From Hyphomicrobiales bacterium (GTDB lineage: Bacteria; Pseudomonadota; Alphaproteobacteria; Rhizobiales; Hyphomicrobiaceae), in NCBI GenBank assembly GCA_003963125.1, contig RXJK01000096.1:1-44329 (forward strand): a DNA stretch of 44,329 nt, read 5' to 3'. Made by a program: the position numbers and the translations under genes. This document shows positions 2,557 to 43,389 of this stretch, piece by piece (the stretch's first letter is position 1; every line of letters starts with the position of its first letter). The notes beneath the pieces were generated by a model. The model was not told where the DNA came from and ran no database searches. It worked only from the letters and a program-made list of their open reading frames with translations.

Positions 2557-2928
2557 ATGCTCAAAGCCGTGATTCACGCGCTGGCCTTCGTTCTCGTCGG
2601 GATCGTCCTGGTCTCGGCTAGCGCGCGTGCGACAACAGGGGATCGGCATAGCATTCACGTCACGGTGGGTGATGTGGAACTCACAGCTGTGCATACCACC
2701 GATGCCGCTCATCAAGAACCTGACGACCACGGTGGAGCGCCGTGTTCGCACGGGGCGTGCAAAGCCTGCTGCGGTGCCTGCGCGCCAGCCCTGCCGCTGG
2801 TTGCTGTTCAGGCTCATGTGCTTGACGCGCAGGACAATGGGCGGTGCGGGAGCCCGCACGCTCCGGACCAGTTGGTCACGCCGGGCCTCAGCCTCCTGCC
2901 ATTTCGGCCTCCCTGCGCGATCGCGTGA
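2557..2928 (+). CDS. CzcI-like small exported Cys/His protein
   Basis: A 123-residue protein with a signal peptide (hydrophobic stretch at about 5-25) and a Cys/His cluster in the middle (CSHGACKACCGAC). Its C-terminus ends in a proline-rich FRPPCAIA, a tail seen in CzcI-type leader proteins. CzcI proteins are periplasmic and precede czcC in several metal-resistance operons; a sensing or modulating role is inferred. It is the first gene of the efflux operon and is followed after about 60 bp by the TolC-type gene. Overall similarity to CzcI is by composition and position, so the family call is tentative. Confidence 0.65.
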   Translation: MLKAVIHALAFVLVGIVLVSASARATTGDRHSIHVTVGDVELTAVHTTDAAHQEPDDHGGAPCSHGACKACCGACAPALPLVAVQAHVLDAQDNGRCGSPHAPDQLVTPGLSLLPFRPPCAIA

Positions 2929-2989
2929 AGTTTCGCGCAGCCCTGTGCTGCGTGTGAATTCATGAAGCGATCCATGGGGTATCCAGAGC

Positions 2990-4330
2990 ATGCCATTTCT
3001 GTTGGGCCGGGCACCGGTCAGCCGCACCTTTATAGGTGTGTCCCTGCGCGCCCGGCGTTGGTTGCCCGGTTGCCGAACGCAACGTGGCGCCATCGCGGCG
3101 GCTCTCGTCGTCGGGCTCATCCTGCCGGGCATTGCCTTGGCGCAATCCGCGCGCCCCTTGCGCATGTCCGAAGCCCTCCGCCAGGCCGCAACCGGCAATC
3201 CACGCCTTGCAGCCGCCCGCATCGAAATCGATATGGCGTATGGCCGGCGCGTGCAGGCGGGAGCCATTCCCAACCCTGAACTCTCCTTCGAACTCGACAA
3301 CGCCCTTGGCTCCGGCGCTTACCGTGACCTCAAATCGGCGGAAACCACTCTTCTTCTGAGCCAGGTTATTGAGTTTCGCGGTAAGCGCGGCGCCCGCATC
3401 GCGGCGGGCTCGGCCGAGGTCGATCAGTTCGGATGGCAGCTTGAGGCCCTGCGCCTCGAGATCCTGACCGATGTCGCCGCCACCTACATCAACGTCGCAG
3501 CCGCCCAGCGACGTCTCCAGGTCTATGACGCGCACCTCGGTGCCCTCGACCGCCTTTTGCCGCTGCTCCGGCGCCGTGTTGAAGCCGGTGCATCCTCCCC
3601 CGCCGATACCGCCCGCGCGGAAGTCGCAGGCGACCTGCTGCGCGCCGATCGCGAGCGCGCCAGCGCCGCGCTTGCCGTCGCGCGTCTTGAGCTCGCATCC
3701 CTCATGGGGCTGCCGAAGCCGAATTTCGGGCGTGTAGTGGGCGACCTGTCTCGGACCTCTCGACCACCATCCCTTGCCGCGGTACTGGCCATGGTAGACG
3801 GCCTGCCGCAACTCGTGAGATGGACAGCCCTGCGCGCGCAGCGTGATGCAGAACTCATACTTGCCCGCCTGAAGCCGTATCCCGACATGCGGGTCAGCGC
3901 CGGCTGGCGGCATTACAACGACACCGGCGACGATGCCGTGCGCCTTGGCCTTTCCTTCTCATTGCCAGTGTTCGATCGCAATACAGGCGGCATCATCGAG
4001 GCGGAAGCCGCGCGCACCAAGGTCGAAGCCGACCGCGCCGCCGGCAAGGCGGCCCTCGTCCTTACCCTCGGCCGCGCCTACGAAACGCTCGTCGGCTCCT
4101 TGCGCGAACTCGACATCCTGCGTCGATCCGCTCTTCCCAATGCGCGCCGCGCCCAGGAGGCCATCGAGCAGGGCTACGAGCAGGGCCGTTTCACCCTGCT
4201 CGAATATCTCGATGTCCAGAACACGGTCACGCAGGCCTCGCTGCGCGAGCTTGAGGCGCTGCTCAACTATCACATCGCCGTCGCCACCATCGAAGGCCTG
4301 ACGGGTGCTGCCCTGGGAACAAGCAAATGA
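2990..4330 (+). CDS. czcC: TolC-family outer-membrane efflux protein (CzcC type)
   Basis: Outer-membrane channel of a tripartite RND metal exporter. The 446-residue product has an N-terminal signal region ending near ALAQ. It then shows two OEP repeats rich in Ala, Arg and Glu helices, including GNPRLAAARIE early and YEQGRFTLLEYLDVQ late. Length fits CzcC/CusC. The ATG at 2990 gives a long, Arg-rich n-region before the hydrophobic core, so a later GTG near 3038 is possible. The stop overlaps the start of the adaptor gene (ATGA), which indicates translational coupling. Confidence 0.92.
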   Translation: MPFLLGRAPVSRTFIGVSLRARRWLPGCRTQRGAIAAALVVGLILPGIALAQSARPLRMSEALRQAATGNPRLAAARIEIDMAYGRRVQAGAIPNPELSFELDNALGSGAYRDLKSAETTLLLSQVIEFRGKRGARIAAGSAEVDQFGWQLEALRLEILTDVAATYINVAAAQRRLQVYDAHLGALDRLLPLLRRRVEAGASSPADTARAEVAGDLLRADRERASAALAVARLELASLMGLPKPNFGRVVGDLSRTSRPPSLAAVLAMVDGLPQLVRWTALRAQRDAELILARLKPYPDMRVSAGWRHYNDTGDDAVRLGLSFSLPVFDRNTGGIIEAEAARTKVEADRAAGKAALVLTLGRAYETLVGSLRELDILRRSALPNARRAQEAIEQGYEQGRFTLLEYLDVQNTVTQASLRELEALLNYHIAVATIEGLTGAALGTSK

Positions 4331-5286
4331 ACAGGTACATGCGTATCGCCAGTATCGTCCTCGTCGCTATCTTCGCTGTTGGCGGCGCCGCCTTCTATCT
4401 CGGGGCCAAACCCGACGCCGGCAAGTCGGCACCCGCCGCCGGCAAAAAGGAGGAACATCACGGCGAGGAAGGCGCGGTGACCCTCAGTGATGCCAAAATC
4501 GCCGCAGCCAATATCGAGCTCGTCAAAGCAGGCGGCGCCACCTTGCGCGACGGCCTTGCCCTCAACGGCATCATCCAGCCCAACCAGGAAGCGCTGGTGC
4601 AGGTGACGCCTCGCTTTCCAGGCGTCGTGCGCGATATTCGCCGTCGCATCGGTGACGTAGTCGCCAAGGGTGATCTTCTTGCGAGCGTGGAAAGCAACCA
4701 GAGCCTGACAGCCTATGAGTTGCGCGCGCCCATCGCCGGTACGGTCATCGATCGCCAGGTCTCGCTAGGAGAATATGTCTCCGAGCAGAAACCGGCCTTC
4801 GTGCTCGCGGATCTTTCCGCCGTGTGGGTTGACTTTTCCGTTTATCGCCGCGACATCCAGCGGGTGAAGGTCGGCGACAAGGTCGCGATCGAACCCGAAG
4901 ATGGTGGTCAACCCATCGAGACCACGATCAGCTATGTCTCGCCTGTGGGTAGCAGCGAGACCCAGAGCGCGCTTGCGCGCGCCGTCGTCAACAATGCCGA
5001 CGGCCGCTTGCGACCCGGTCTCTTCGTGCGTGCCCGCGTTATTTTGACGGCCAAGTCCGTTCCGCTCGCCGTCAAGCTCTCTGCTCTGCAGACCATAGAA
5101 AATCGCACGGTCGTCTTTGTACGCAGCGGAGACAAGTTCGAACCGCGCGACGTCATGGTCGGGGGACGCGATCAGGAATGGGCCGAGATCAGTTTTGGCC
5201 TGGAATCGGGCGATACCTACGCCGCGCGCAACAGCTTCGTCATCAAGGCGGAACTCGCCAAGGGAACGGCATCCCACGCGCACTAA
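4327..5286 (+). CDS. czcB: RND efflux periplasmic adaptor subunit (CzcB type)
   Basis: Membrane-fusion protein linking the inner-membrane pump to the outer-membrane channel. The 319-residue protein starts with a membrane anchor (about residues 5-25) and a short basic/His segment (KKEEHHGEEG). A barrel-sandwich/lipoyl region follows (TPRFPGVVRDI, ELRAPIAGTVIDRQVSLGEYV), then a beta-barrel domain. It is short for CzcB and lacks a long alpha-hairpin and the N-terminal HMBD found in the cus adaptor of this window. The ATG overlaps the czcC stop. A 39 bp gap separates it from czcA. Confidence 0.9.
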   Translation: MNRYMRIASIVLVAIFAVGGAAFYLGAKPDAGKSAPAAGKKEEHHGEEGAVTLSDAKIAAANIELVKAGGATLRDGLALNGIIQPNQEALVQVTPRFPGVVRDIRRRIGDVVAKGDLLASVESNQSLTAYELRAPIAGTVIDRQVSLGEYVSEQKPAFVLADLSAVWVDFSVYRRDIQRVKVGDKVAIEPEDGGQPIETTISYVSPVGSSETQSALARAVVNNADGRLRPGLFVRARVILTAKSVPLAVKLSALQTIENRTVVFVRSGDKFEPRDVMVGGRDQEWAEISFGLESGDTYAARNSFVIKAELAKGTASHAH

Positions 5287-5316
5287 GTGAATGCCGCTCT
5301 GATCCTTCGTCCCTGA

Positions 5317-8905
<3,589 letters not shown>

Positions 8906-8906
<1 letters not shown>

Positions 8907-13560: not shown

Positions 13561-15120
13561 TCAGCTATTCAGCCGAAAACTAGCCCAGATCCTCGCCAAG
13601 CCGGTTCTCAACCTGGGGCGCGGAATGTTGGCGTAGAGGGTTGTCAACGGAGGATGGTCTCGCAACGCCTCTGGGCGGTAAGGGTTGAATCGATCGTACT
13701 GCAAAACGCTTGCGAGTTTGGCCCGATCAATGACGGTCTGATGCAGCGGCGCACCGACCTTGATCGATCGAGACCTTCCAGGCCACGTAATGCCGAACCA
13801 GCGTGTCAGGATCGGAAACCCGACCCGACGCTGACAATGCTGCATCCCATCGCAGGAGGGATAAAGACGCAGCACGGATGGGTCGATCTTGATGCCGTCC
13901 TTCACCGTCGTGGCGGCTTCGATCATCCACTTCAGCGCAATGTCGGAAAGCCTCGATTCACTCTCAGCGTAGCTGCCGCCGATGTCTGAATGATTGCCGG
14001 CAAACCACATCTGCTGAAAGGCAATGAACCCATTCGCATCGCTTGCTGGACGCGTGGACTTCGGGTCGCCCCATCCAACTTGCTTGAACGACGCGCGGTC
14101 CTCATCGATCGAAATAGCATGGCGCGCATAGGGCACATTGTCGTTGAGGGTCTTGTCCTCAAAGCTCATTCGGCCCCAGTTGAACGTGAAAGTGCGCCAC
14201 TTTTTATTGCCTACCGCCTTCGGCGCAAAGCGGTGCGCCTGAATCACATAACAGATGCCGGCGGCCAGTGTGGCCGCACCCGCCACCCCTGAAAGCCAAT
14301 GCCAGCCATTGGACGGGTCGCCGCCTAAGAGGGCAAAGAGGCTACTGATGCGGTTGAACGGAAAGTATTGCAGCAGCGGCGCATAGTACGATTGCGTCGC
14401 CCAAAGTGCGGCCGCGAGGCCGCTCACGAGCGCCAAGGTCGCCAGGAAAAGGACCATCTGTGCACCCCGGCTTGCAATCGATGCCACCGTGTCAAATACG
14501 CCAATGAAGTAGGGGTAGTGAGATTTCTCGGCGACAAGATCCACGCCATGCTTCTCGCGAAACTGCCGCGCCAGTTCGACGCGCTGATCGAGCAACTCTT
14601 CCTGCCGCTTGCTCGCTCCGTTGCGTTGGCGCGAGGGCGTATGCTGGTACACGCGCTTGACGGCGAACTTCGCAAGCTTGCGCAGCGTGCCTGGATCATA
14701 GGTGAGGGGCTGATCGGGGCCCAATCGTGTGGGCACACCACAATTTGCCAGGACGCCTGCCACACACCGCACCGTGTAAGCACCGCGGCTGAAGCCAAAT
14801 AGGAAGATGCGATCCCCCGGACGCCAGTAGCGAATGATCATCTGGTAGCAGTCGATGATATTGGCGGTAAGCCCGAGGCCGGTTGCCTGGCTTACGAAAT
14901 TGCTGAGCCTCCTGTAGGCAGAACCGAAGCTGCCCGCTCCAGGTGGACGCGAGCCGAGGCCCGCATCGTAGTAGGCGATCTGTTCGTTTGGGTCGATGCA
15001 CGAGTCCGGCGCGACCCGAGTCGCCCGGTACATCTTGTAGATGTTGCTCCGATCCTCATCGAAGGCGATCCCGCCCACCTGTCCTGTGCCATCGGAATAA
15101 ATCAGTATGTTGCGCGCCAT
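13561..15120 (-). CDS. DUF2235/Tle1-like alpha/beta hydrolase with membrane segments
   Basis: A 519-residue predicted phospholipase-type hydrolase. It opens with NILIYSDGTGQ, then carries the nucleophile motif FGFSRGAYT (GxSRG) near residue 110 and the acid motif FAGNHSDIGGSY further on. These are hallmarks of DUF2235, which includes type VI secretion effectors of the Tle1 family. Two hydrophobic stretches (about 215-245 and 265-290) interrupt the fold, so membrane association is likely. I chose ATG 15120, just before the conserved domain and after AAAGAGA; the ORF track starts at 15147. No T6SS or immunity gene is evident, unless the adjacent membrane protein serves. Confidence 0.83.
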   Translation of the reverse strand: MARNILIYSDGTGQVGGIAFDEDRSNIYKMYRATRVAPDSCIDPNEQIAYYDAGLGSRPPGAGSFGSAYRRLSNFVSQATGLGLTANIIDCYQMIIRYWRPGDRIFLFGFSRGAYTVRCVAGVLANCGVPTRLGPDQPLTYDPGTLRKLAKFAVKRVYQHTPSRQRNGASKRQEELLDQRVELARQFREKHGVDLVAEKSHYPYFIGVFDTVASIASRGAQMVLFLATLALVSGLAAALWATQSYYAPLLQYFPFNRISSLFALLGGDPSNGWHWLSGVAGAATLAAGICYVIQAHRFAPKAVGNKKWRTFTFNWGRMSFEDKTLNDNVPYARHAISIDEDRASFKQVGWGDPKSTRPASDANGFIAFQQMWFAGNHSDIGGSYAESESRLSDIALKWMIEAATTVKDGIKIDPSVLRLYPSCDGMQHCQRRVGFPILTRWFGITWPGRSRSIKVGAPLHQTVIDRAKLASVLQYDRFNPYRPEALRDHPPLTTLYANIPRPRLRTGLARIWASFRLNS

Positions 15121-15366
15121 CTGGAAATCTCTTTGAACAATGACCATGCGAACGTACTCCGTCGCCGGTCGCCATCAATACTGACAACGCATCGTAGGAC
15201 ATGTGCGCGCACAGCGAAACCCGCTTTCCTCTTCGGGCGCGCTCCATAGACCGGTTTGCTCGCATCCACCTTCGACAAAATTTGTTTGAACCAAGGTGGT
15301 CCGTTGTCGGATCGGTTGTCGCCGCGCATTCTCTGAACCTGTGCAACAACAAAAAGGAGAAAGCAC

Positions 15367-16883: not shown

Positions 16884-17986
16884 TTATCGGTTGGGTGATA
16901 ATGCCTGACTACCCCGGCTTGTGTTGCGGATCCGAAGCGCAGGGACCATGTGTCGTTTCATCTTGAGCGCCGGCCTTTCGATCAGCAGCCAGGAAGCGAT
17001 GCCGAACATCGCGCTGACCAGGACGGTTGTAACCTGATGCCCAATCGCCGTGACTGAGGGCACCAGGTACAGCACCGTCTGCCCGATCGGCCATCCGTAA
17101 ATGTAGATGCCGTACGAGGCGTCGAAGCGGTCAGTGAGTGTGGATGCGTGGCCCCAGAGGCGGGTGCCGAAGGTCAAACTCAGTACTGCCGTTGCAAGCA
17201 GAAGGGCTGGCACGCCGAGGCGTGTCGGAAACAGCGCCAGGGCCAGACCCGCTACGAGTGCGCAAAGGACGGCGGAGTAGCGCACATGGGCGCGCAGTTC
17301 ATAAGCTGCCGCGCCCAGGCAAAAGCACAAGAGGAAACGCCTTAGGTTGTCGACGGTCGTCTTGGGAGAGGTGACCGCGCTCACAAAGGTAAGCGTGAGC
17401 ACAGCTATGGCGATTGCCAACACCTGTCCCGCATGCGTCTTCAATCCAAAGCCGGTTAGTATCGCAAGGAGCGCGTGACACAGGACTTCATACTTCAACG
17501 TCCAAAGCGAAAGATTGCTCTCACCCGCAACCGGCAACGTGTCAAACACGCCGGGCAAGGTGGCTTTCGCTGTCACAAGCGTGATCGTCTTCCCGATGTA
17601 GCCGATGACTTGTGCATCAGCGAGGTACGCTGGAAGCGGCAAGGTGGTCGTCACGGTCCCAATGCCAACACTGTCAAAGCCACGCACACGAATAGTGCCG
17701 GCATGATCCGCAGGAACCGGGCCCAGACGTATTGCCCGAATGAACGGCTGCGGGCGAGGCTCATGGCGATCAGGACGCCACTTAGGCAAAAAAACACATG
17801 CACCGCATGCTGACCGAGCGTGAAGCCAGTCCAGGCCTCCAGCGGATCGGTGATTTCTCCGCTGAAGATGCCGTAGTTGTGTTAGACCACCACCGCCATC
17901 GCCGCGAGTGCGCGCACGAGTGAAAAGCTATTGCTTCCAGCCCCTTCGTGATCACAAAGAAGCCGTCCTCGCATCATCACTGTCAT
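16884..17986 (-). pseudogene. Acyltransferase-3 (OafA-like) pseudogene with stop and frameshift
   Basis: Membrane O-acyltransferase remnant. The start NSFSLVRALAAMAVVV is followed by an in-frame TAA near 17883, where the family usually continues with Ser-His. Reading on gives HNYGIF and HVFFCLSGVLIAMSLARSRSF, which is normal for the family. A second lesion, a frameshift near 17650, moves the rest into the frame of ORF 16884-17789 (FDASYGIYIYGWPIGQ and WLLIERPALKMKR). Such proteins have 10-11 membrane helices and modify surface sugars. The exact start is uncertain (ATG 17974, 17977 or 17986). Confidence 0.8.
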
Positions 17987-18068: not shown

Positions 18069-18087
18069 GGTTACGCGCGGTTACAAA
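18069..18087 (+). promoter_or_regulatory. GTTAC-N5-GTTAC direct repeat, site 2
   Basis: GTTAC at 18070-18074 and 18080-18084, 10 bp apart, followed by AAA. It is about 240 bp upstream of the response-regulator gene and 85 bp upstream of the acyltransferase pseudogene. It suggests autoregulation of the two-component system. Confidence 0.6.
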
Positions 18088-18322
18088 TCAGTCCTGCGAG
18101 GGCCCAGCATCCGCGGGTACGATGGGCCCGGCGAGGTCGCGCGATCACGCTCGCCACACCAATGGTATTCCACACTTCGTTGCTGAAGTCTGGCATCCTA
18201 GTTGTTTGCGTAGCGAAGCCCCGTGGCGCTTCCCCGGCGGCCGGCGCCAGCTTTGTCGCATCGAATGCAAAGCATCCCGTGTGCCACAAGACGGCCCACC
18301 TATCCTGGCCCCTGAATTAAGC

Positions 18323-19045
18323 ATGACCCAGCAGGCGCATATTCTGATCGTCGATGACGATCGCGACATCCGAACGCTTCTCTCCCGCTTTCTGCAAAGC
18401 CATGGCTTTGTTGCCTCTGTCGCCGCGAGCGGCAAGGAAATGCGGGCGTTCCTTGCCAACCAGCATGTGGACCTCATTGTTCTTGATCGCGTCATGCCAG
18501 GCGAGGACGGGCTCGAACTCTGTCACGAACTCCAGCAAACCACACGCGTACCCGTCATCCTTCTTTCGCTTCTCGGTTCTGAGAACGATCGCATCGAGGG
18601 CTTTGAAGCGGGCGCCGACGACTACGTGCTGAAGCCCTTCAGCCCTGCAGAGCTGCTCGGTCGGATTCGGGCAGTTCTGCGCCGCGCAAATGACCTGCCG
18701 CGCGGCAACACAGCCAGCGGGTCAACCGTTGAGTTTCTGGGCTGGGTGCTGGATCGGAGTAAGCGGCAACTCTTCGCGCCCGATGGCAGCCTCGTCACCC
18801 TCACCGATGGCGATTACGAACTGCTCGAGGTGTTTGTCGACTATCCGCAGATGGTATTGACCCGTGACCAACTTCTCGGTCGCACCCGGGGTAAACATAC
18901 CGGGCCCTTCCACCGTAGCATGGACATGCGTATCGCGAGGCTGCGCCGCAAGATCGAGACAGGCGCCGACCAACCCGCCATCATCAGGACGCTACGCAAC
19001 AAGGGCTACGTCTTCATGCCCGACGTCAAGGTTCGCGAGGAATAG
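18323..19045 (+). CDS. OmpR-family response regulator
   Basis: DNA-binding response regulator of 240 residues. The receiver domain (1-120) has the acidic pair in IVDDDRD, the phospho-acceptor Asp in LIVLDRVMPGEDG, the switch serine in VILLSLLG and the lysine in YVLKPFSP. The C-terminal winged helix (about 145-235) ends with RTLRNKGYVF. ATG 18323 begins the conserved domain; the ORF-track start at 18122 is an unsupported extension. The kinase gene follows after 2 bp. The intergenic GTTAC repeats across this window are good candidate targets for this family, which binds tandem half-sites one helical turn apart. Confidence 0.93.
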   Translation: MTQQAHILIVDDDRDIRTLLSRFLQSHGFVASVAASGKEMRAFLANQHVDLIVLDRVMPGEDGLELCHELQQTTRVPVILLSLLGSENDRIEGFEAGADDYVLKPFSPAELLGRIRAVLRRANDLPRGNTASGSTVEFLGWVLDRSKRQLFAPDGSLVTLTDGDYELLEVFVDYPQMVLTRDQLLGRTRGKHTGPFHRSMDMRIARLRRKIETGADQPAIIRTLRNKGYVFMPDVKVREE

Positions 19046-19047
19046 CC

Positions 19048-20451
19048 GTGCTACTCAACAGCCTTAAGTCGAGGATGCTCCTCGTACTCATGCTGGGGCT
19101 GCTGCTTTCCCATTTCCTGGGTCTGTGGCTTTACGCCAGAAAGCACGATGAGGCCGCATCGCTCCTCCAAGATACCCTGCTGGCCGAACGCATCGCCCTC
19201 GTCACGCATCTTCTTGAAACCACCCCGCAGGGCGAACAGGAGCAACTGGTCAAGAAGCTTTCCAGCGTTCTGGTCAAAGTACAGCCCGGAGGCACCGTTG
19301 GAGGAGGGGAGTGGCACATCTTTGAATCCCGCCCACACCTCTTTGAGCACTTACTGGGGCTTTTTCTCAACCGGCCGAGTCACGAGGGCATTACCAGCGA
19401 ACATCAGCCTGCGAACCGGTCGGACCGCCGGAGCCTCCTCTCCATGCTCAGCGCGGAACTTAATCCCGCCCATCGTCAACTTCCTGAGCGAACCCTGGAG
19501 GACATCGTCAAGATCGGTCAGATGAAAACGGAAGTGCAGCTCACAACAGGTAGCAGCATCACCGTCACCAATCAATGGCTGGGGGTCAGCCCATTCTCCA
19601 TCGCGCAGATCTGGGCGCCTCTCGGGGCAGTGTTGATAGCAGTGTTTCTTTGCGGCTCCTGGGTCATTGCACGCGCGACCCAGCCCCTGACCGACCTTGC
19701 CAACGCTGCAGCGCGCCTGGGCGGCGATATCCGTGCTGCGCCTTTGGCGATCTCTGGGGCAACGGAAGTGCAATCAGCCTCCCGCGCATTCAACGCCATG
19801 CAGGAACGCATTCAACGGCTGGTGGAAGACCGTACGGCGTTCGCAACAGCGCTTGCTCACGATATCGGAACGCCCATCACCCGGCTGCTGCTCAGGCTCG
19901 AGGAACTTCCGCCATCAGACGTCAAGAAAGACATCGAGCGCGATATCACCCATATGCAACGCATGGTGCGGGCGACACTCGATTTCGCGCGCAGCGATTT
20001 TAATGCCGAGCGGACGGAGATTGTGGATGTCGCCGATCTCATTGGCGATATCGCCGCGGCCATGTCCCTCGCGCATCGCCGCCTTTCGGTGCGCGTGCCG
20101 CCCGGATTGACCATCCAGACCAGGCCGACCCGGCTTCACCGCGCCATCAGCAATATCGCCGAGAATGCCCTCAAGTATGGAGGCGAAGCGACCATCGCCG
20201 CGCGCATCTTCGAGAATCCCTCGCGCCTTGAGGTCCGCGTCGAGGATCGCGGTCCTGGTATCCCCAAGCATCTTCACGAGGAAGCCTTCCGGCCGTTTCG
20301 CAGGTTGGTCGAACGATCGGATGCCTCTCCCTCCGGGACCGGCCTCGGACTTTCCATCGCCCGAAGCATCGCACGCAGCCTCGGAGGTGATGTTACGCTG
20401 CAGAACCGGCAGGAGGGAGGCCTGCGCGCGACGCTTTCGATCCCCCTTTAG
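19048..20451 (+). CDS. Membrane sensor histidine kinase
   Basis: Partner kinase of 467 residues, starting with GTG 2 bp after the regulator stop. A membrane helix lies at about 8-28 and a second at about 190-210, enclosing a 160-residue periplasmic sensor region. HAMP follows (ATQPLTDLANAAARLG), then HisKA with the phospho-acceptor in ALAHDIGTPITRL. The ATPase domain has NIAENALKYG, VEDRGPGIP and GTGLGLSIARSIA. The periplasmic part has a few His residues (HIFESRPHLFEH) but no Cys motif. The signal is unknown; metal or envelope stress is inferred from the surroundings. Confidence 0.93.
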   Translation: MLLNSLKSRMLLVLMLGLLLSHFLGLWLYARKHDEAASLLQDTLLAERIALVTHLLETTPQGEQEQLVKKLSSVLVKVQPGGTVGGGEWHIFESRPHLFEHLLGLFLNRPSHEGITSEHQPANRSDRRSLLSMLSAELNPAHRQLPERTLEDIVKIGQMKTEVQLTTGSSITVTNQWLGVSPFSIAQIWAPLGAVLIAVFLCGSWVIARATQPLTDLANAAARLGGDIRAAPLAISGATEVQSASRAFNAMQERIQRLVEDRTAFATALAHDIGTPITRLLLRLEELPPSDVKKDIERDITHMQRMVRATLDFARSDFNAERTEIVDVADLIGDIAAAMSLAHRRLSVRVPPGLTIQTRPTRLHRAISNIAENALKYGGEATIAARIFENPSRLEVRVEDRGPGIPKHLHEEAFRPFRRLVERSDASPSGTGLGLSIARSIARSLGGDVTLQNRQEGGLRATLSIPL

Positions 20452-21004: not shown

Positions 21005-21020
21005 GGTTACATGCCGTTAC
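21005..21020 (+). promoter_or_regulatory. GTTAC-N5-GTTAC direct repeat, site 3a
   Basis: GTTAC at 21006-21010 and 21016-21020. It is the first of two tandem pairs between the DUF736 gene and the small exported protein at 21175. Confidence 0.6.
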
Positions 21021-21032
21021 ACGAATTCCATC

Positions 21033-21048
21033 CGTTACTGGCGGTTAC
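21033..21048 (+). promoter_or_regulatory. GTTAC-N5-GTTAC direct repeat, site 3b
   Basis: GTTAC at 21034-21038 and 21044-21048, 28 bp after the first pair. It lies about 125 bp upstream of the ATG at 21175. Doubled sites suggest cooperative binding. Confidence 0.6.
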
Positions 21049-21174: not shown

Positions 21175-21393
21175 ATGTCTCGTACCGTTGCTTCCGCTGG
21201 TCTATTCGCATCTGCCCTCCTCGGACTGGGTCTTATGTCCGCACAAGCGGCGCCCGCAACTTCCTCGCTCGCCGGCCTTAGCAATGCTGGCACTAGCCTC
21301 AGTGAGCAGGCAAATTGGCGACGCCAGCGCATGCACTATCGCCCCTACCATCATGGCCCGCGCCGTCACTGGTATCAGCGTCGCTGGTGGTAA
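21175..21393 (+). CDS. Small exported Arg/His/aromatic-rich protein
   Basis: A 72-residue protein. A clear signal peptide (ASALLGLGLMSAQAAPA) precedes a short mature part that ends in a Trp/Tyr/His/Arg-rich tail (HYRPYHHGPRRHWYQRRWW). GAAGAAAGGA precedes the ATG. It has two GTTAC pairs upstream and an intrinsic terminator downstream, so it forms a single-gene unit. Comparable exported proteins at 25.1 and 43.1 kb also sit beside GTTAC sites. Metal binding or envelope interaction is inferred from composition only. Confidence 0.7.
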   Translation: MSRTVASAGLFASALLGLGLMSAQAAPATSSLAGLSNAGTSLSEQANWRRQRMHYRPYHHGPRRHWYQRRWW

Positions 21394-22613: not shown

Positions 22614-22937
22614 CTAAGGCAAACTAGCCAACTCGTTAATTACGTCGTCTTCACCCTGAAGCTCATCCGGACGCTCGAGCAGAAGGCAAGGGCACCCACG
22701 GTTCTTCAACTCCTGGACGATCTCGGCGCCCAGTTGTCCGAGATCGACGCTTACAATAGCAGCCACAGCCAGGTTCCTTTCGAGGCCGCTAACTGCCAGC
22801 GGCACGCTATTCGCCGGGCCGATCGTCTCATACCCCGCCTTCTCCAGGGCGGCGCACAAGCGCATGAACAATTCAGGCGTGGTCGTTGCAACGAGTACCG
22901 CTTGACCTCTGGCTCGCCCCATGACCGGGCCTCGCAA
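22614..22937 (-). CDS. Degenerate response-regulator receiver domain protein
   Basis: About 107 residues resembling the stand-alone receiver proteins common in alphaproteobacteria: AVLVATTTPELF, then LEKAGYETIGPANSV and ELKNRGCPCLLLERP. The acidic pocket is missing after strand 1 (ATTT in place of an acidic pair). The phospho-acceptor position reads VSVDLG where the family has LDVNLG, so the Asp is Ser. It therefore cannot be phosphorylated in the normal way and may bind a partner constitutively. Starts at 22937 or 22922 are possible. A GTTAC pair lies 114 bp upstream. Confidence 0.6.
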   Translation of the reverse strand: MRGPVMGRARGQAVLVATTTPELFMRLCAALEKAGYETIGPANSVPLAVSGLERNLAVAAIVSVDLGQLGAEIVQELKNRGCPCLLLERPDELQGEDDVINELASLP

Positions 22938-23027: not shown

Positions 23028-23210
23028 CTAATGCGCACCCGAATTGTTTTGTAACCCGATGTAACCGCGCCAGGGACGGCAGGGAGCCGGCCTCGCCGAG
23101 AAAAAGGGGGATCGACGAAGCCGGCCCAGGGCGCGAGCTGTCAGTCCCGCGCCCATGATGCCTATCAGGAAGATCATCAGGTTGGCAGCGAGGTGCCGCT
23201 TCATTAACAT
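23028..23210 (-). CDS. Possible small membrane protein
   Basis: A 60-residue ORF with a hydrophobic helix (LMIFLIGIMGAGL) after a basic start and an Arg/Pro-rich tail. A weaker GTTAC-type repeat lies about 40 bp upstream of its start. The overlapping ORF 22951-23241 in another frame looks like a shadow. No family is recognised. Confidence 0.35.
   Translation of the reverse strand: MLMKRHLAANLMIFLIGIMGAGLTARALGRLRRSPFFSARPAPCRPWRGYIGLQNNSGAH
23048..23066 (-). promoter_or_regulatory. GTTAC-N5-GTTAC direct repeat, site 4
   Basis: On the minus strand GTTAC-N5-GTTACAAAA (plus-strand GTAAC at 23051-23055 and 23061-23065). It is 114 bp upstream of the degenerate receiver gene. Confidence 0.6.
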
Positions 23211-23291: not shown

Positions 23292-24128
23292 CTAAGGCGA
23301 TGATCCGGTGAGCATGAGGCCGTGCCTCGCGCGGCTATGCGTTGGATCGAGTCGAAGTGTTTCCCGGAAATCGATGGCAGCCTCACCATGCTGCCCGAGC
23401 ATAAGGTGCACAGCTCCACGGTTGTAGCGTGCGGAAACATCCGACGGATCCAACGTAACTGCTTTGGAGAGATCATCTAGCGCGGCGCGCAAATTTCCGG
23501 TTCGCAGATGTGCGTTGCCCCGGTTGTAGTAGGCACCCGCGAAGCGATCGTTAAGACGAACGGCTTCCGAATAATCCTTGGTTGCCGCTTCGTAGGCGCC
23601 GAGCGTGAAGTGAGCCGTCCCGCGATTGTTAAGCACCTCGGCTTCATCTGGCCGAAGCCGCACTGCAGCGTGCAAATCGACCAGAGCGGCCGTCGCATTT
23701 CCTGCCCTCAGAAGCGCCACACCCCGTCCATTGTAGGCATGGCCGTCAAGCGGCTCGAGCGCCAGGGCGCGCGTGAAGTCCTCAATGGCCGGACCGTACT
23801 TGCCGGTATCAAGGAGAAGACTGCCACGATTGACATACGCTGTCGCATTGCCGGGATATAGTCGGAGAGCCTCATCGAAGTCATTCAACGCCTTGGCCAG
23901 CTCTTTGCGCCTGGCGTAGGCCACGCCGCGATTGTCTAAGGCGCGCGATCGCGCATCCACGTTGGCGCGGCTGTCATCGATAATGATCGAGCACGCTGTG
24001 ATGCGCCTTTCAGGTTCGCCGTCTGCGCACGCCGAGGGGGATGGGGTCTGCGCCAGCGCGGAAGCGCCTATGATCGACGCTGCAAATGCGCCGATGAGAC
24101 CTTCCGACAATGCGCGTGCCGTATTCAT
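23292..24128 (-). CDS. Exported TPR-repeat protein
   Basis: A 278-residue protein with a signal peptide ending near ALAQ. From about residue 60 it has roughly six tetratricopeptide repeats, visible as A..NRG.A....G....A..D...A..L.P (for example AYVNRGSLLLDTGKYGPAIEDF). TPR arrays bind partner proteins; this one would act in the periplasm. Two cysteines near the mature N-terminus (SACADG, ITAC) could form a disulfide. It is a single gene with a GTTAC pair 95 bp upstream, so it is a candidate member of the putative regulon. Confidence 0.88.
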   Translation of the reverse strand: MNTARALSEGLIGAFAASIIGASALAQTPSPSACADGEPERRITACSIIIDDSRANVDARSRALDNRGVAYARRKELAKALNDFDEALRLYPGNATAYVNRGSLLLDTGKYGPAIEDFTRALALEPLDGHAYNGRGVALLRAGNATAALVDLHAAVRLRPDEAEVLNNRGTAHFTLGAYEAATKDYSEAVRLNDRFAGAYYNRGNAHLRTGNLRAALDDLSKAVTLDPSDVSARYNRGAVHLMLGQHGEAAIDFRETLRLDPTHSRARHGLMLTGSSP

Positions 24129-24587
24129 GTCATTTGTGGCGCATGCGCTGAATCAAATTGCGTTCGAGCCGAACATTACCATTCGCTTCGCCTGAGCCGT
24201 GAGGGGATGAGGCCCGAAATTTGTAACCTGGTGTAACGAAAGAGCAGGAAGTTGGACGCGGATCATTAACTGGGGTCTTTTCAACCGATCTGAGGGATGC
24301 GCAATGGTCGTCCGCGAAGGCAGCGCGACCCCACACGCCATTTGTGCTCGTGAGAGCGGGGCAGGCCGCGCAACGGATCCGACCGCGCCATGCGCCCCAC
24401 CACCACCCCCCACCCCAGTCATTTATGGCATCAGACATCTTCCTCACCCGGTTATTGGTTTTTCCCACGCCAGCTGGCTGGCAGGGCCTGACTGAGGTTT
24501 TCTGTTGGTTGCCCTTATTCGGGCTATCTCTTGGCCGGGGCGTGCATCACCATCAGGGCCTGCTGTGTGCAATGGGAAAGGCCCGTC
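24129..24587. other. Intergenic region with one GTTAC site
   Basis: Apart from the site at 24220 no convincing gene is seen. ORFs here are Pro- or Gly-rich shadows of each other. Confidence 0.4.
24220..24237 (-). promoter_or_regulatory. GTTAC-N5-GTTAC direct repeat, site 6
   Basis: On the minus strand GTTAC-N5-GTTACAAAT (plus-strand GTAAC at 24223-24227 and 24233-24237). It is 95 bp upstream of the TPR gene. Confidence 0.6.
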
Positions 24588-24987: not shown

Positions 24988-25005
24988 TTTGTAACCTTGC
25001 GTAAC
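24988..25005 (-). promoter_or_regulatory. GTTAC-N5-GTTAC direct repeat, site 7
   Basis: Plus-strand GTAAC at 24991-24995 and 25001-25005, with AAAA next to it on the minus-strand reading. It is 136 bp upstream of the His-rich gene at 25141. Confidence 0.6.
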
Positions 25006-25140: not shown

Positions 25141-25473
25141 ATGCCAAAGCTATTTTTCTCCGGCCTCGCGCTTTGTGCGGGGATTGTCCTGCATGTTCAA
25201 TCGTCACTTGCCGCCCCGCCAGTGATGCGGGGAATGTCAACCGCCCTACCGGCTGCGGCGGAGACAATCCAGCATCGGCACCACGGGCATCATAACCGCC
25301 GATATCACCACCATCAGCTCCGCAGGCATCGCGGCTACCAACCTCCGTACGGCTATTACCAGCCACCGGCGTATGGCAACTACTATGGTCCTGCATCGGT
25401 CCTTCCCTACGCATACATCCCAAGACATCATCACCAGCACCAGCACCACCACCACCACCATGGCCACCACTAG
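25141..25473 (+). CDS. Exported His-rich protein
   Basis: A 110-residue protein. The signal peptide (LFFSGLALCAGIVLHVQSSLAA) is followed by a His/Tyr/Pro-rich mature chain with RHHHQHQHHHHHHGHH at the end. Such tails bind Ni, Zn or Cu; a periplasmic metal-sponge role is inferred. ATG 25141 has a strong ribosome site (GAAGGAGGG); the ORF-track start at 24997 is upstream of the real gene and overlaps the GTTAC site. Confidence 0.78.
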   Translation: MPKLFFSGLALCAGIVLHVQSSLAAPPVMRGMSTALPAAAETIQHRHHGHHNRRYHHHQLRRHRGYQPPYGYYQPPAYGNYYGPASVLPYAYIPRHHHQHQHHHHHHGHH

Positions 25474-35271: not shown

Positions 35272-35733
35272 CTATTTGTCCAGCAGGCGGCGCATCTGCG
35301 CGATCTCTTCGGCCTGGCTCTTGATGATGTTCTGGCACAGCGTGGTCAGTTCGCTGCCTTCGAGCTTGGCCCGCGAACACATCAAGATGGCGCCCGAGTG
35401 ATGCGGGATCATCGAGCGTAGGAATTGCGTGTTGCCGACAAAGGCCTGCGTGCGGATCGCCACGAAGAACAGGATCAGCGCCAGGACGCTCACGCCTGCC
35501 ACGATCGCGTTGAGCCGTTGATCGGGATACATGTCGCGCATCAAAGCCAACTCGATCAACACCATCGGCGCCGTCATCAACCCGGCCATGTACACCTGGT
35601 TGATACTGTTGAGCACATTGGGAAACGCGTTCACCATGGCGTACATCAGGATGTACATGGAAACAAAGGAGAGGGCGGTCATCCCCAACAGGCGCATGTA
35701 GGGCTTGTGGTGGTCGTCATGCGACTTCATCAT
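35272..35733 (-). CDS. Membrane DUF305 protein
   Basis: A 153-residue protein with an N-terminal His stretch (SHDDHHKPY), three membrane helices (about 20-45, 48-68, 75-100) and a C-terminal half DUF305 domain that has FLRSMIPHHSGAILMC and QNIIKSQAEEIAQMRRLL. The HH pair is the DUF305 metal-site motif. ATG 35733 follows AAGGAG. It is convergent with the cus operon. Related proteins are tied to copper handling. Confidence 0.85.
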   Translation of the reverse strand: MMKSHDDHHKPYMRLLGMTALSFVSMYILMYAMVNAFPNVLNSINQVYMAGLMTAPMVLIELALMRDMYPDQRLNAIVAGVSVLALILFFVAIRTQAFVGNTQFLRSMIPHHSGAILMCSRAKLEGSELTTLCQNIIKSQAEEIAQMRRLLDK

Positions 35734-36255
35734 TCCACTCTCCTTAATGTCATGGGACACAAGCATGTTGGTTACGCCCGGCTTACGCAGCAGCCGCCGA
35801 GCAGCTTAGATTTCCGGCACATAAAAATTCGATCTGAATGTGGATGCGCCGTCGCTGCGTCGCGCCCGCGCATCCGAATCCGTCTGGCTGTAAGGAGCCG
35901 TGATCGCTGGAACCGGCGCCATCGCCGCTCGGTGTCATAAGGCATGCAGGGGCTCCGCTCATTGCAAGGGCAGCTGAACACATGACGTGTGCAGGGATGA
36001 CCAAGTCAAACGGCGAAGCCCTCTACAGTAGCGCTCCCGCGCGCAGTATTTTTTGTAACACCTTGTAACTTATGCGAGCGCTGCCCCTCTGCGGAAGGCC
36101 GTATCCCGTCACGCCACCCGGTTTCACATGGCATTTTTATGCCCAGCGCTTGCAGATTAACTGTCTTCCGCGCGCTTTCGTACCGACGCTTGCTCTCTGG
36201 AACGCGCCGATCGTTACAGGCGTTGCGATCACACCCAACTCCAGGAGAATTCCAA
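35734..36255. other. Intergenic region between DUF305 and Csp-like genes
   Basis: No convincing gene. Two overlapping minus-strand ORFs (35772-35981 and 35783-36004) have no ribosome site or family. One GTTAC pair lies at 36052-36069. Confidence 0.4.
36052..36069 (-). promoter_or_regulatory. GTTAC-N5-GTTAC direct repeat, site 8
   Basis: Plus-strand GTAAC at 36055-36059 and 36065-36069, with an A run on the minus reading. It is about 187 bp upstream of the Csp-like gene. Confidence 0.6.
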
Positions 36256-36588
36256 ATGCATCATCTCGACAAAGCCATGCAGGACTGCATTGCCGCCTGC
36301 CTCAAATGCTACGCGACCTGTCATGGCACGGCCATGGGCCACTGCCTTGAAGCCGGCGGCGACCACACCAAGCCCAAGCACTTTCGTCTCATGGTGGCAT
36401 GCGCCGAGGTCTGTCGCAGCGCCGCCCATGTCATGCTGACCGGCAGCGAACAGCACAAGAAAGTATGCGCTGCGTGCGCCGAAATCTGCGATGCGTGCGC
36501 CAAGGACTGCGAGCGCATCGGCGACATGCAAGCGTGCGTCGAGGCGTGTCGGCATTGCGCGGAGCACTGCCGCAAGATGGCGGCTTAA
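36256..36588 (+). CDS. Four-helix-bundle copper-binding protein (Csp/DUF326-like)
   Basis: A 110-residue Cys-rich protein with 13 cysteines in CxxxC-type spacing: CIAACLKCYATC, CAEVCRSA, CAACAEICDACAKDC and CVEACRHCAEHC. This is the pattern of Csp copper-storage proteins, which line the bundle core with thiols to hold many Cu(I) ions. No signal peptide is visible, so a cytosolic Csp3-like form is likely. ATG 36256 follows AGGAG; the ORF-track start at 36139 is an extension through the promoter. Confidence 0.9.
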   Translation: MHHLDKAMQDCIAACLKCYATCHGTAMGHCLEAGGDHTKPKHFRLMVACAEVCRSAAHVMLTGSEQHKKVCAACAEICDACAKDCERIGDMQACVEACRHCAEHCRKMAA

Positions 36589-43058: not shown

Positions 43059-43274
43059 CTAGTGATGATGATCCGGGCATACCCACCTGCAGCGGTGATG
43101 ACCGTGATGATCATGCCAGCAGTGACGATGACAACGATGATTGACGGGCGAGACAACCTTGCTTTGGAACCCCTTGAAGGCGGTGACGCCCCCGTTCGCG
43201 GAGAGGGCGGCTGAAGTAGCGAGACCTAGGGCCCCGAAGCTGAAGATGGCGGACAAAACTACGCGGCGGATCAT
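43059..43274 (-). CDS. Exported His/Cys-rich protein
   Basis: A 71-residue protein. Signal peptide (VLSAIFSFGALGLATSAALSA), then a metal-binding tail with HRCHRHCWHDHHGHHRCRWVCPDHHH. The three Cys and many His could bind Zn, Ni or Cu. GAGGTAA precedes the ATG. A GTTAC pair lies about 100 bp upstream, between it and the divergent receiver gene. Confidence 0.75.
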   Translation of the reverse strand: MIRRVVLSAIFSFGALGLATSAALSANGGVTAFKGFQSKVVSPVNHRCHRHCWHDHHGHHRCRWVCPDHHH

Positions 43275-43374: not shown

Positions 43375-43389
43375 GTAACAACGTGTAAC
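43375..43389 (-). promoter_or_regulatory. GTTAC-N5-GTTAC direct repeat, site 9
   Basis: Plus-strand GTAAC at 43375-43379 and 43385-43389. It lies between the divergent His-rich gene (43274) and the single-domain response regulator (43586). Confidence 0.6.

Follow-up and report, generated by a model that had tools for sequence, protein, structure and literature searches.

The regulator–kinase pair and its sensor domain

The 44,329-nucleotide stretch of DNA analysed here (the window) carries a two-gene pair on the forward strand at 18.3–20.4 kb, made up of a response regulator of the OmpR class (18323–19045, 240 residues) and a sensor histidine kinase of the EnvZ class (19048–20451, 467 residues). 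The regulator begins at ATG 18323 and combines a receiver (Response_reg, PF00072; residues 7–115), with phospho-acceptor D55, and a winged-helix DNA-binding domain (Trans_reg_C, PF00486; residues 158–231). The kinase begins at GTG 19048, two bases past the regulator stop codon, and contains HAMP (PF00672), HisKA (PF00512) and HATPase_c (PF02518) domains, with H271 in the H-box. The receiver Asp and Lys and the winged helix of the regulator, together with the HAMP, HisKA His and HATPase_c of the kinase, place the pair among two-component systems with an OmpR-class regulator. Both frames are open and retain D55 and H271, as well as the N and G boxes; most of the recognition helix is likewise kept. 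Just 5′ of the pair (16884–17900) lie fragmented acyltransferase-like frames that, by eye, have the appearance of a decayed gene.

The kinase has two likely membrane helices, as judged from its sequence, and the loop that joins them (approximately residues 29–186; 19132–19605, forward strand) is predicted to form a periplasmic sensor domain. This is close to the size of about 160 residues given in the original prediction, and the accompanying statement that the domain is not of a recognised metal-binding type was borne out by searches of Pfam, NCBIfam and the PDB, which returned no sequence match. A structure model of the domain was of low confidence (mean pLDDT 65) and gave no fold match, the best PDB hit being at E = 0.16. 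Alignment of the orthologues revealed an HxxxH motif (H97 and H101, within RxHxFEHL) that is kept in near orthologues and is absent from the kinases of genomes G063, G065 and G072, although the boxes described below persist in those genomes. A role for HxxxH as a metal site is only a suggestion.

Boxes in the window and in the genome

An exact direct repeat of the form GTTAC-N5-GTTAC, reading GTTACGCGCGGTTAC, was observed on the forward strand at 18070–18084, 5′ of the regulator, and is proposed as an autoregulatory operator. It ends 238 nt before the regulator ATG, clearly more distant than in the orthologues. The window contains nine exact boxes, spanning 2386–43389, every one of which has the 5-base spacer and lies outside the main genes, which occupy 68% of the window. 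By chance, 0.14 would be expected for a looser spacing of 0–12 bases, and the maximum in 100 shuffles was 2. The pair is central among these sites and has a repeat of its own upstream, both as claimed at the outset.

The first box (2386–2400, +) lies between a Zn/Cd-type P1B-ATPase gene (2–2248, −) and a Cys-rich small protein gene followed by the czcCBA operon (2557–8906, +). Two boxes 28 bp apart (21006–21020 and 21034–21048, both +) are found 5′ of the gene for a 72-residue secreted His/Arg-rich protein (21175–21393). On the reverse strand, one box (23051–23065) is 5′ of a gene for a 102-residue protein (22614–22922, −), another (24223–24237) sits 94 nt 5′ of a secreted TPR protein gene (23292–24128, −), and a third (24991–25005) precedes, in reverse orientation, the gene for a secreted His-rich protein (25141–25473, +). 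The remaining two, also on the reverse strand, are located between a Csp1-like copper-storage protein gene (36256–36588, +) and a DUF305 gene (35272–35766, −), at 36055–36069, and 100 nt 5′ of the gene for a 71-residue secreted His-rich protein (43059–43274, −), at 43375–43389. The Csp1-like assignment is a weak match, with the Csp1 model scoring far under its cut-off. A CusB with HMBD domains is also encoded in the window.

Other window genes include 13561–15147, which encodes a 528-residue protein matching the catalytic domain of T6SS Tle1-like phospholipases (PF09994), an odd placement in a metal island, and a phage-type integrase gene (PF00589; 42104–42724) near the contig end, which fits mobility of the island.

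The whole 6.2-Mb assembly has 16 boxes, with nine in the window contig (C128), five in C89, a second metal-resistance contig, and one each in C13 and C168. The two contigs that hold 14 of the 16 amount to 108 kb together, where 0.28 would be expected. C89 carries a paralogous pair, with a regulator and kinase 59 and 62% identical, respectively, to those of the window, and its regulator, which shares about 72% identity with the conserved member of the family in genome G025, has its own box beginning 122 nt before the start. The neighbours of this pair are genes for a CopA-type ATPase, multicopper oxidase, cupredoxin, CusF, pump subunits and an outer-membrane factor, and C89 boxes lie ahead of the regions that hold cusF, the cupredoxin gene and the outer-membrane-factor gene. 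Both pairs probably recognise one and the same box, and the two islands are therefore probably co-regulated; the C89 pair may share or even dominate control of the regulon.

Conservation of the box across orthologues

The conserved member G025 served as the query to gather orthologues from 103 genomes belonging to the same family; a first profile search of the named genome contigs with the kinase alignment gave no matches. An exact box oriented towards the gene was found upstream of 12 of the 14 orthologous regulators, which come from several genera and form a clade with support of 100/100. The two clade members without an exact box at the regulator are those of the sister genomes G119 and G120, and both lie in copper clusters. 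The clustering of box labels on the regulator tree was equalled in none of 500 shuffles. In the window's own genome, OmpR-family regulators that fall in other clades have no exact box upstream, and other-clade regulators in the collected set are mostly without one. With start codons chosen by script, the box begins about 83–98 nt before the regulator start in ten clade members, compared with 122 nt in C89 and 253 nt in the window, whose regulator is the most divergent member of the clade (branch 0.89).

A second, inverted box was detected further upstream of 15 of 27 box-bearing regulators (score of at least 8/10; 1.8% expected), at exactly 28 bp in 10 of those 15, and is absent at the window and C89 regulators. 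The window boxes at 21006 and 21034 are likewise 28 bp apart, in the same orientation. Several Rhodospirillales regulators outside the clade and not in recognisable copper loci also carry this box, in most cases near −60, so the box seems to be older than the copper role. On two Rhodospirillales contigs (L149 and L153), a perfect inverted box pair 28 bp apart is present 5′ of a regulator that is not in a recognisable copper locus. At the sister regulators G070b, G072b, G114, G116 and G124, GTTTC-N5-GTTTC at about −80 replaces GTTAC-N5-GTTAC, which may reflect co-evolution of regulator and operator. Among plasmid homologues (kinase identity 35–39%), that of a Sulfitobacter copper plasmid has a degenerate box 61 nt before the regulator, and the Sinorhizobium and Magnetospirillum loci have no box before it.

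Genomes of the family hold 0–6 boxes each, except the window genome (G000) and G077, a member of another genus, which have 16 each. Dense box clusters are confined to these two, which are the genomes with two copies of the pair in copper islands; those of G077 (on C10 and C29) each contain a pair and boxes. Many proteins of C10:130–213 kb and C29:20–55 kb (L132–L138) are 83–95% identical, marking a duplication that takes in the two-component pair as well, and in the C10 copy the kinase is split into two frames. Boxes are located ahead of copA (both islands of G077, G119 and G120), a MerR/CueR-like regulator gene (G077, G119 and G120) and cusF (C89 and G077), and small secreted His- or Cys-rich protein genes are also box-flanked, in G077 and elsewhere; no porin gene was seen among the box-flanked genes. 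The pairs of C89, G077, G025, G070, G119, G120 and G065 sit among genes for a Cus-type pump, CopA, multicopper oxidase, CusF or cupredoxin, and the orthologous pair of G072 flanks a czcCBA of the window's type, with CzcA 67.9% identical.

Alignment of 38 boxes revealed an A-rich 3′ flank, which was not part of the search and gives the extended form GTTACANNCNGTTACAAAWT; the second base after the box is A in 31 of the 38. Flank-bearing boxes in G119, G120, G063 and G065 adjoin copA or secreted His-rich genes; in G004, one (on C174) lies ahead of another kind of gene that, judged by eye, probably encodes a Crp-like regulator. Single boxes without the flank in G119 (C2 and C4), G001 (C53) and G063 (C123) have no recognisable metal gene adjoining.

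A proposed metal-responsive circuit and its relation to known systems

We consider it probable that this OmpR/EnvZ-class pair senses metal and activates both itself and the box-flanked genes through GTTAC-N5-GTTAC. The kinase would sense periplasmic metal overload, most likely of copper (Cu+/Ag+), via its domain of roughly 160 residues and, by analogy with related systems, phosphorylate the regulator at D55. The phosphorylated regulator would then be expected to bind the two half-sites head-to-tail as a dimer, and, once bound, would recruit polymerase and raise its own operon, again by analogy. Activation would extend to the small secreted His/Cys-rich proteins, the Csp1-like protein and the czcCBA/P1B-ATPase pair. 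The original prediction that the pair's own genes and the box regulon are under its control, which was drawn from position alone, gains independent support, at the level of sequence comparison, from the box at most orthologous regulators, the lack of it at other OmpR-family regulators and the restriction of box clusters to G000 and G077. Among the stresses it had named (Cu, Zn and Cd, and that of the envelope), copper becomes the first candidate. The metal is most likely copper but may also be Zn/Cd, given czcCBA and the Zn/Cd-type ATPase: the 2386 box serves Zn/Cd-type genes and the G072 pair adjoins czcCBA.

The long branch and displaced single box of the window regulator, and the closer relationship of the C89 regulator to the conserved orthologues, would fit a different arrangement, in which the C89 pair is the main box reader and the window pair a copy that is diverging, either in decay or already turned to another input. 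We regard this as a serious but doubtful alternative, since the window pair keeps its open frames, conserved residues and motifs and most of its recognition helix, and the box of its regulator is retained exactly. It is unlikely that the window pair answers chiefly to Zn/Cd (czc-type), with the family varying the metal and keeping the box: the position of the 2386 box between the Zn/Cd-type P1B-ATPase and czcCBA and the similar czcCBA beside the G072 orthologue favour this, but the C89 pair and those of six other genomes lie amid copper genes, and the window itself has the box-adjoining Csp1-like gene and the CusB with HMBD domains.

The pair could also sense metal-caused envelope stress, in the manner of EnvZ/CpxA-type kinases, or act through a regulator that represses instead of activating. 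EnvZ and CpxA are the top-scoring kinase models, the sensor is without a known metal site, and UzcRS of Caulobacter responds to U/Zn/Cu and has links with envelope stress (PMC8963506, PMC12864828, PMC8224329). However, the content of the regulon is metal-specific across genera and the position of the boxes 5′ of the starts fits activation, making either variant improbable. That the boxes are not regulatory for the pair at all, being due to chance, another regulator or repeat DNA travelling with the islands, appears very improbable. GTTAC-N5-GTTAC does turn up roughly once per genome with no evident meaning, but its conservation upstream of the orthologous regulator, copA, merR and cusF genes, its lack at other regulators and the conservation of the flank amid otherwise unlike surroundings argue against such an origin, and chance in particular is ruled out by the orthologues.

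Beyond the preferred reading of a metal-sensing pair that activates the box regulon, we tentatively entertain an undescribed, probably alphaproteobacterial copper circuit, in which a pair of the OmpR/EnvZ type, equipped with a periplasmic copper-sensing domain of a new kind (RxHxFEHL, HxxxH), would govern a single GTTAC-N5-GTTAC regulon, tying two metal islands together via paralogous cross-reading pairs. No account of this system was found in the literature searched on GTTAC with copper or alphaproteobacterial regulators, which included few subscription journals. Well studied periplasmic copper control in Proteobacteria involves CusR/CopR-type regulators and palindromic boxes. In the bacteria considered here, which are probably Alphaproteobacteria, this task appears to have passed to another branch of the OmpR family. 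The alphaproteobacterial placement comes from the regulator tree; the assembly contains no 16S gene. The box is precise enough for the regulon to be read from sequence. Many small secreted His/Cys-rich proteins with no other known role thereby acquire a function that can be tested, and the arrangement would provide a natural case of one operator common to two paralogous systems.

The window regulator is 41.5% identical to OmpR of Escherichia coli, compared with 31% to CusR. The best NCBIfam models, OmpR for the regulator (222 bits, cut-off 331) and EnvZ for the kinase (177.7 bits, cut-off 415), fall below the equivalog level in both cases. The catalytic half of the kinase best matches EnvZ. 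In sequence, the box corresponds to GTTACA-type half-sites set in tandem at a 10-bp spacing, and the half-sites bound by OmpR are likewise 10-bp units in tandem (as cited in PMC7380067). Unlike OmpR/EnvZ, the window pair has another sensor domain and a putative metal-resistance regulon. RisA of Bordetella, also of the OmpR family, binds the same GTTACA motif by ChIP-seq (PMC11019879), but differs in its broad virulence-phase regulon, in a motif distance that varies from 5 to 180 bp and in that no autoregulation was found. UzcRS of Caulobacter crescentus is likewise a metal-responsive two-component system, with a regulon rich in secreted proteins, and is not required for metal tolerance (PMC8224329); its motif, CATTAC-N6-TTAA (PMC8963506), differs from the window box and its regulon is a broad one of U/Zn/Cu and envelope genes. 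Assignment to the heavy-metal CusRS/CopRS subfamily (TIGR01386/TIGR01387) was rejected, as regulator and kinase both score far under the cut-offs, at 119.3 against 279.2 bits and 110.7 against 292.55 bits. The window pair nevertheless resembles CusRS, CopRS, PcoRS and AgrRS as a regulator–kinase pair in copper islands that would control efflux pumps and periplasmic copper proteins, and one box common to several systems has a precedent among copper–silver systems (PMC11195947). The regulators of these systems bind palindromes, ATTCATnnATGTAAT and ATKACANNNNTGTMAT (PMC11195947, PMC7380067), whereas the window operator is a direct repeat. Set against palindrome-binding copper regulators, the OmpR-like models and tandem half-sites thus point to an OmpR-type regulator doing a CopR-type job.
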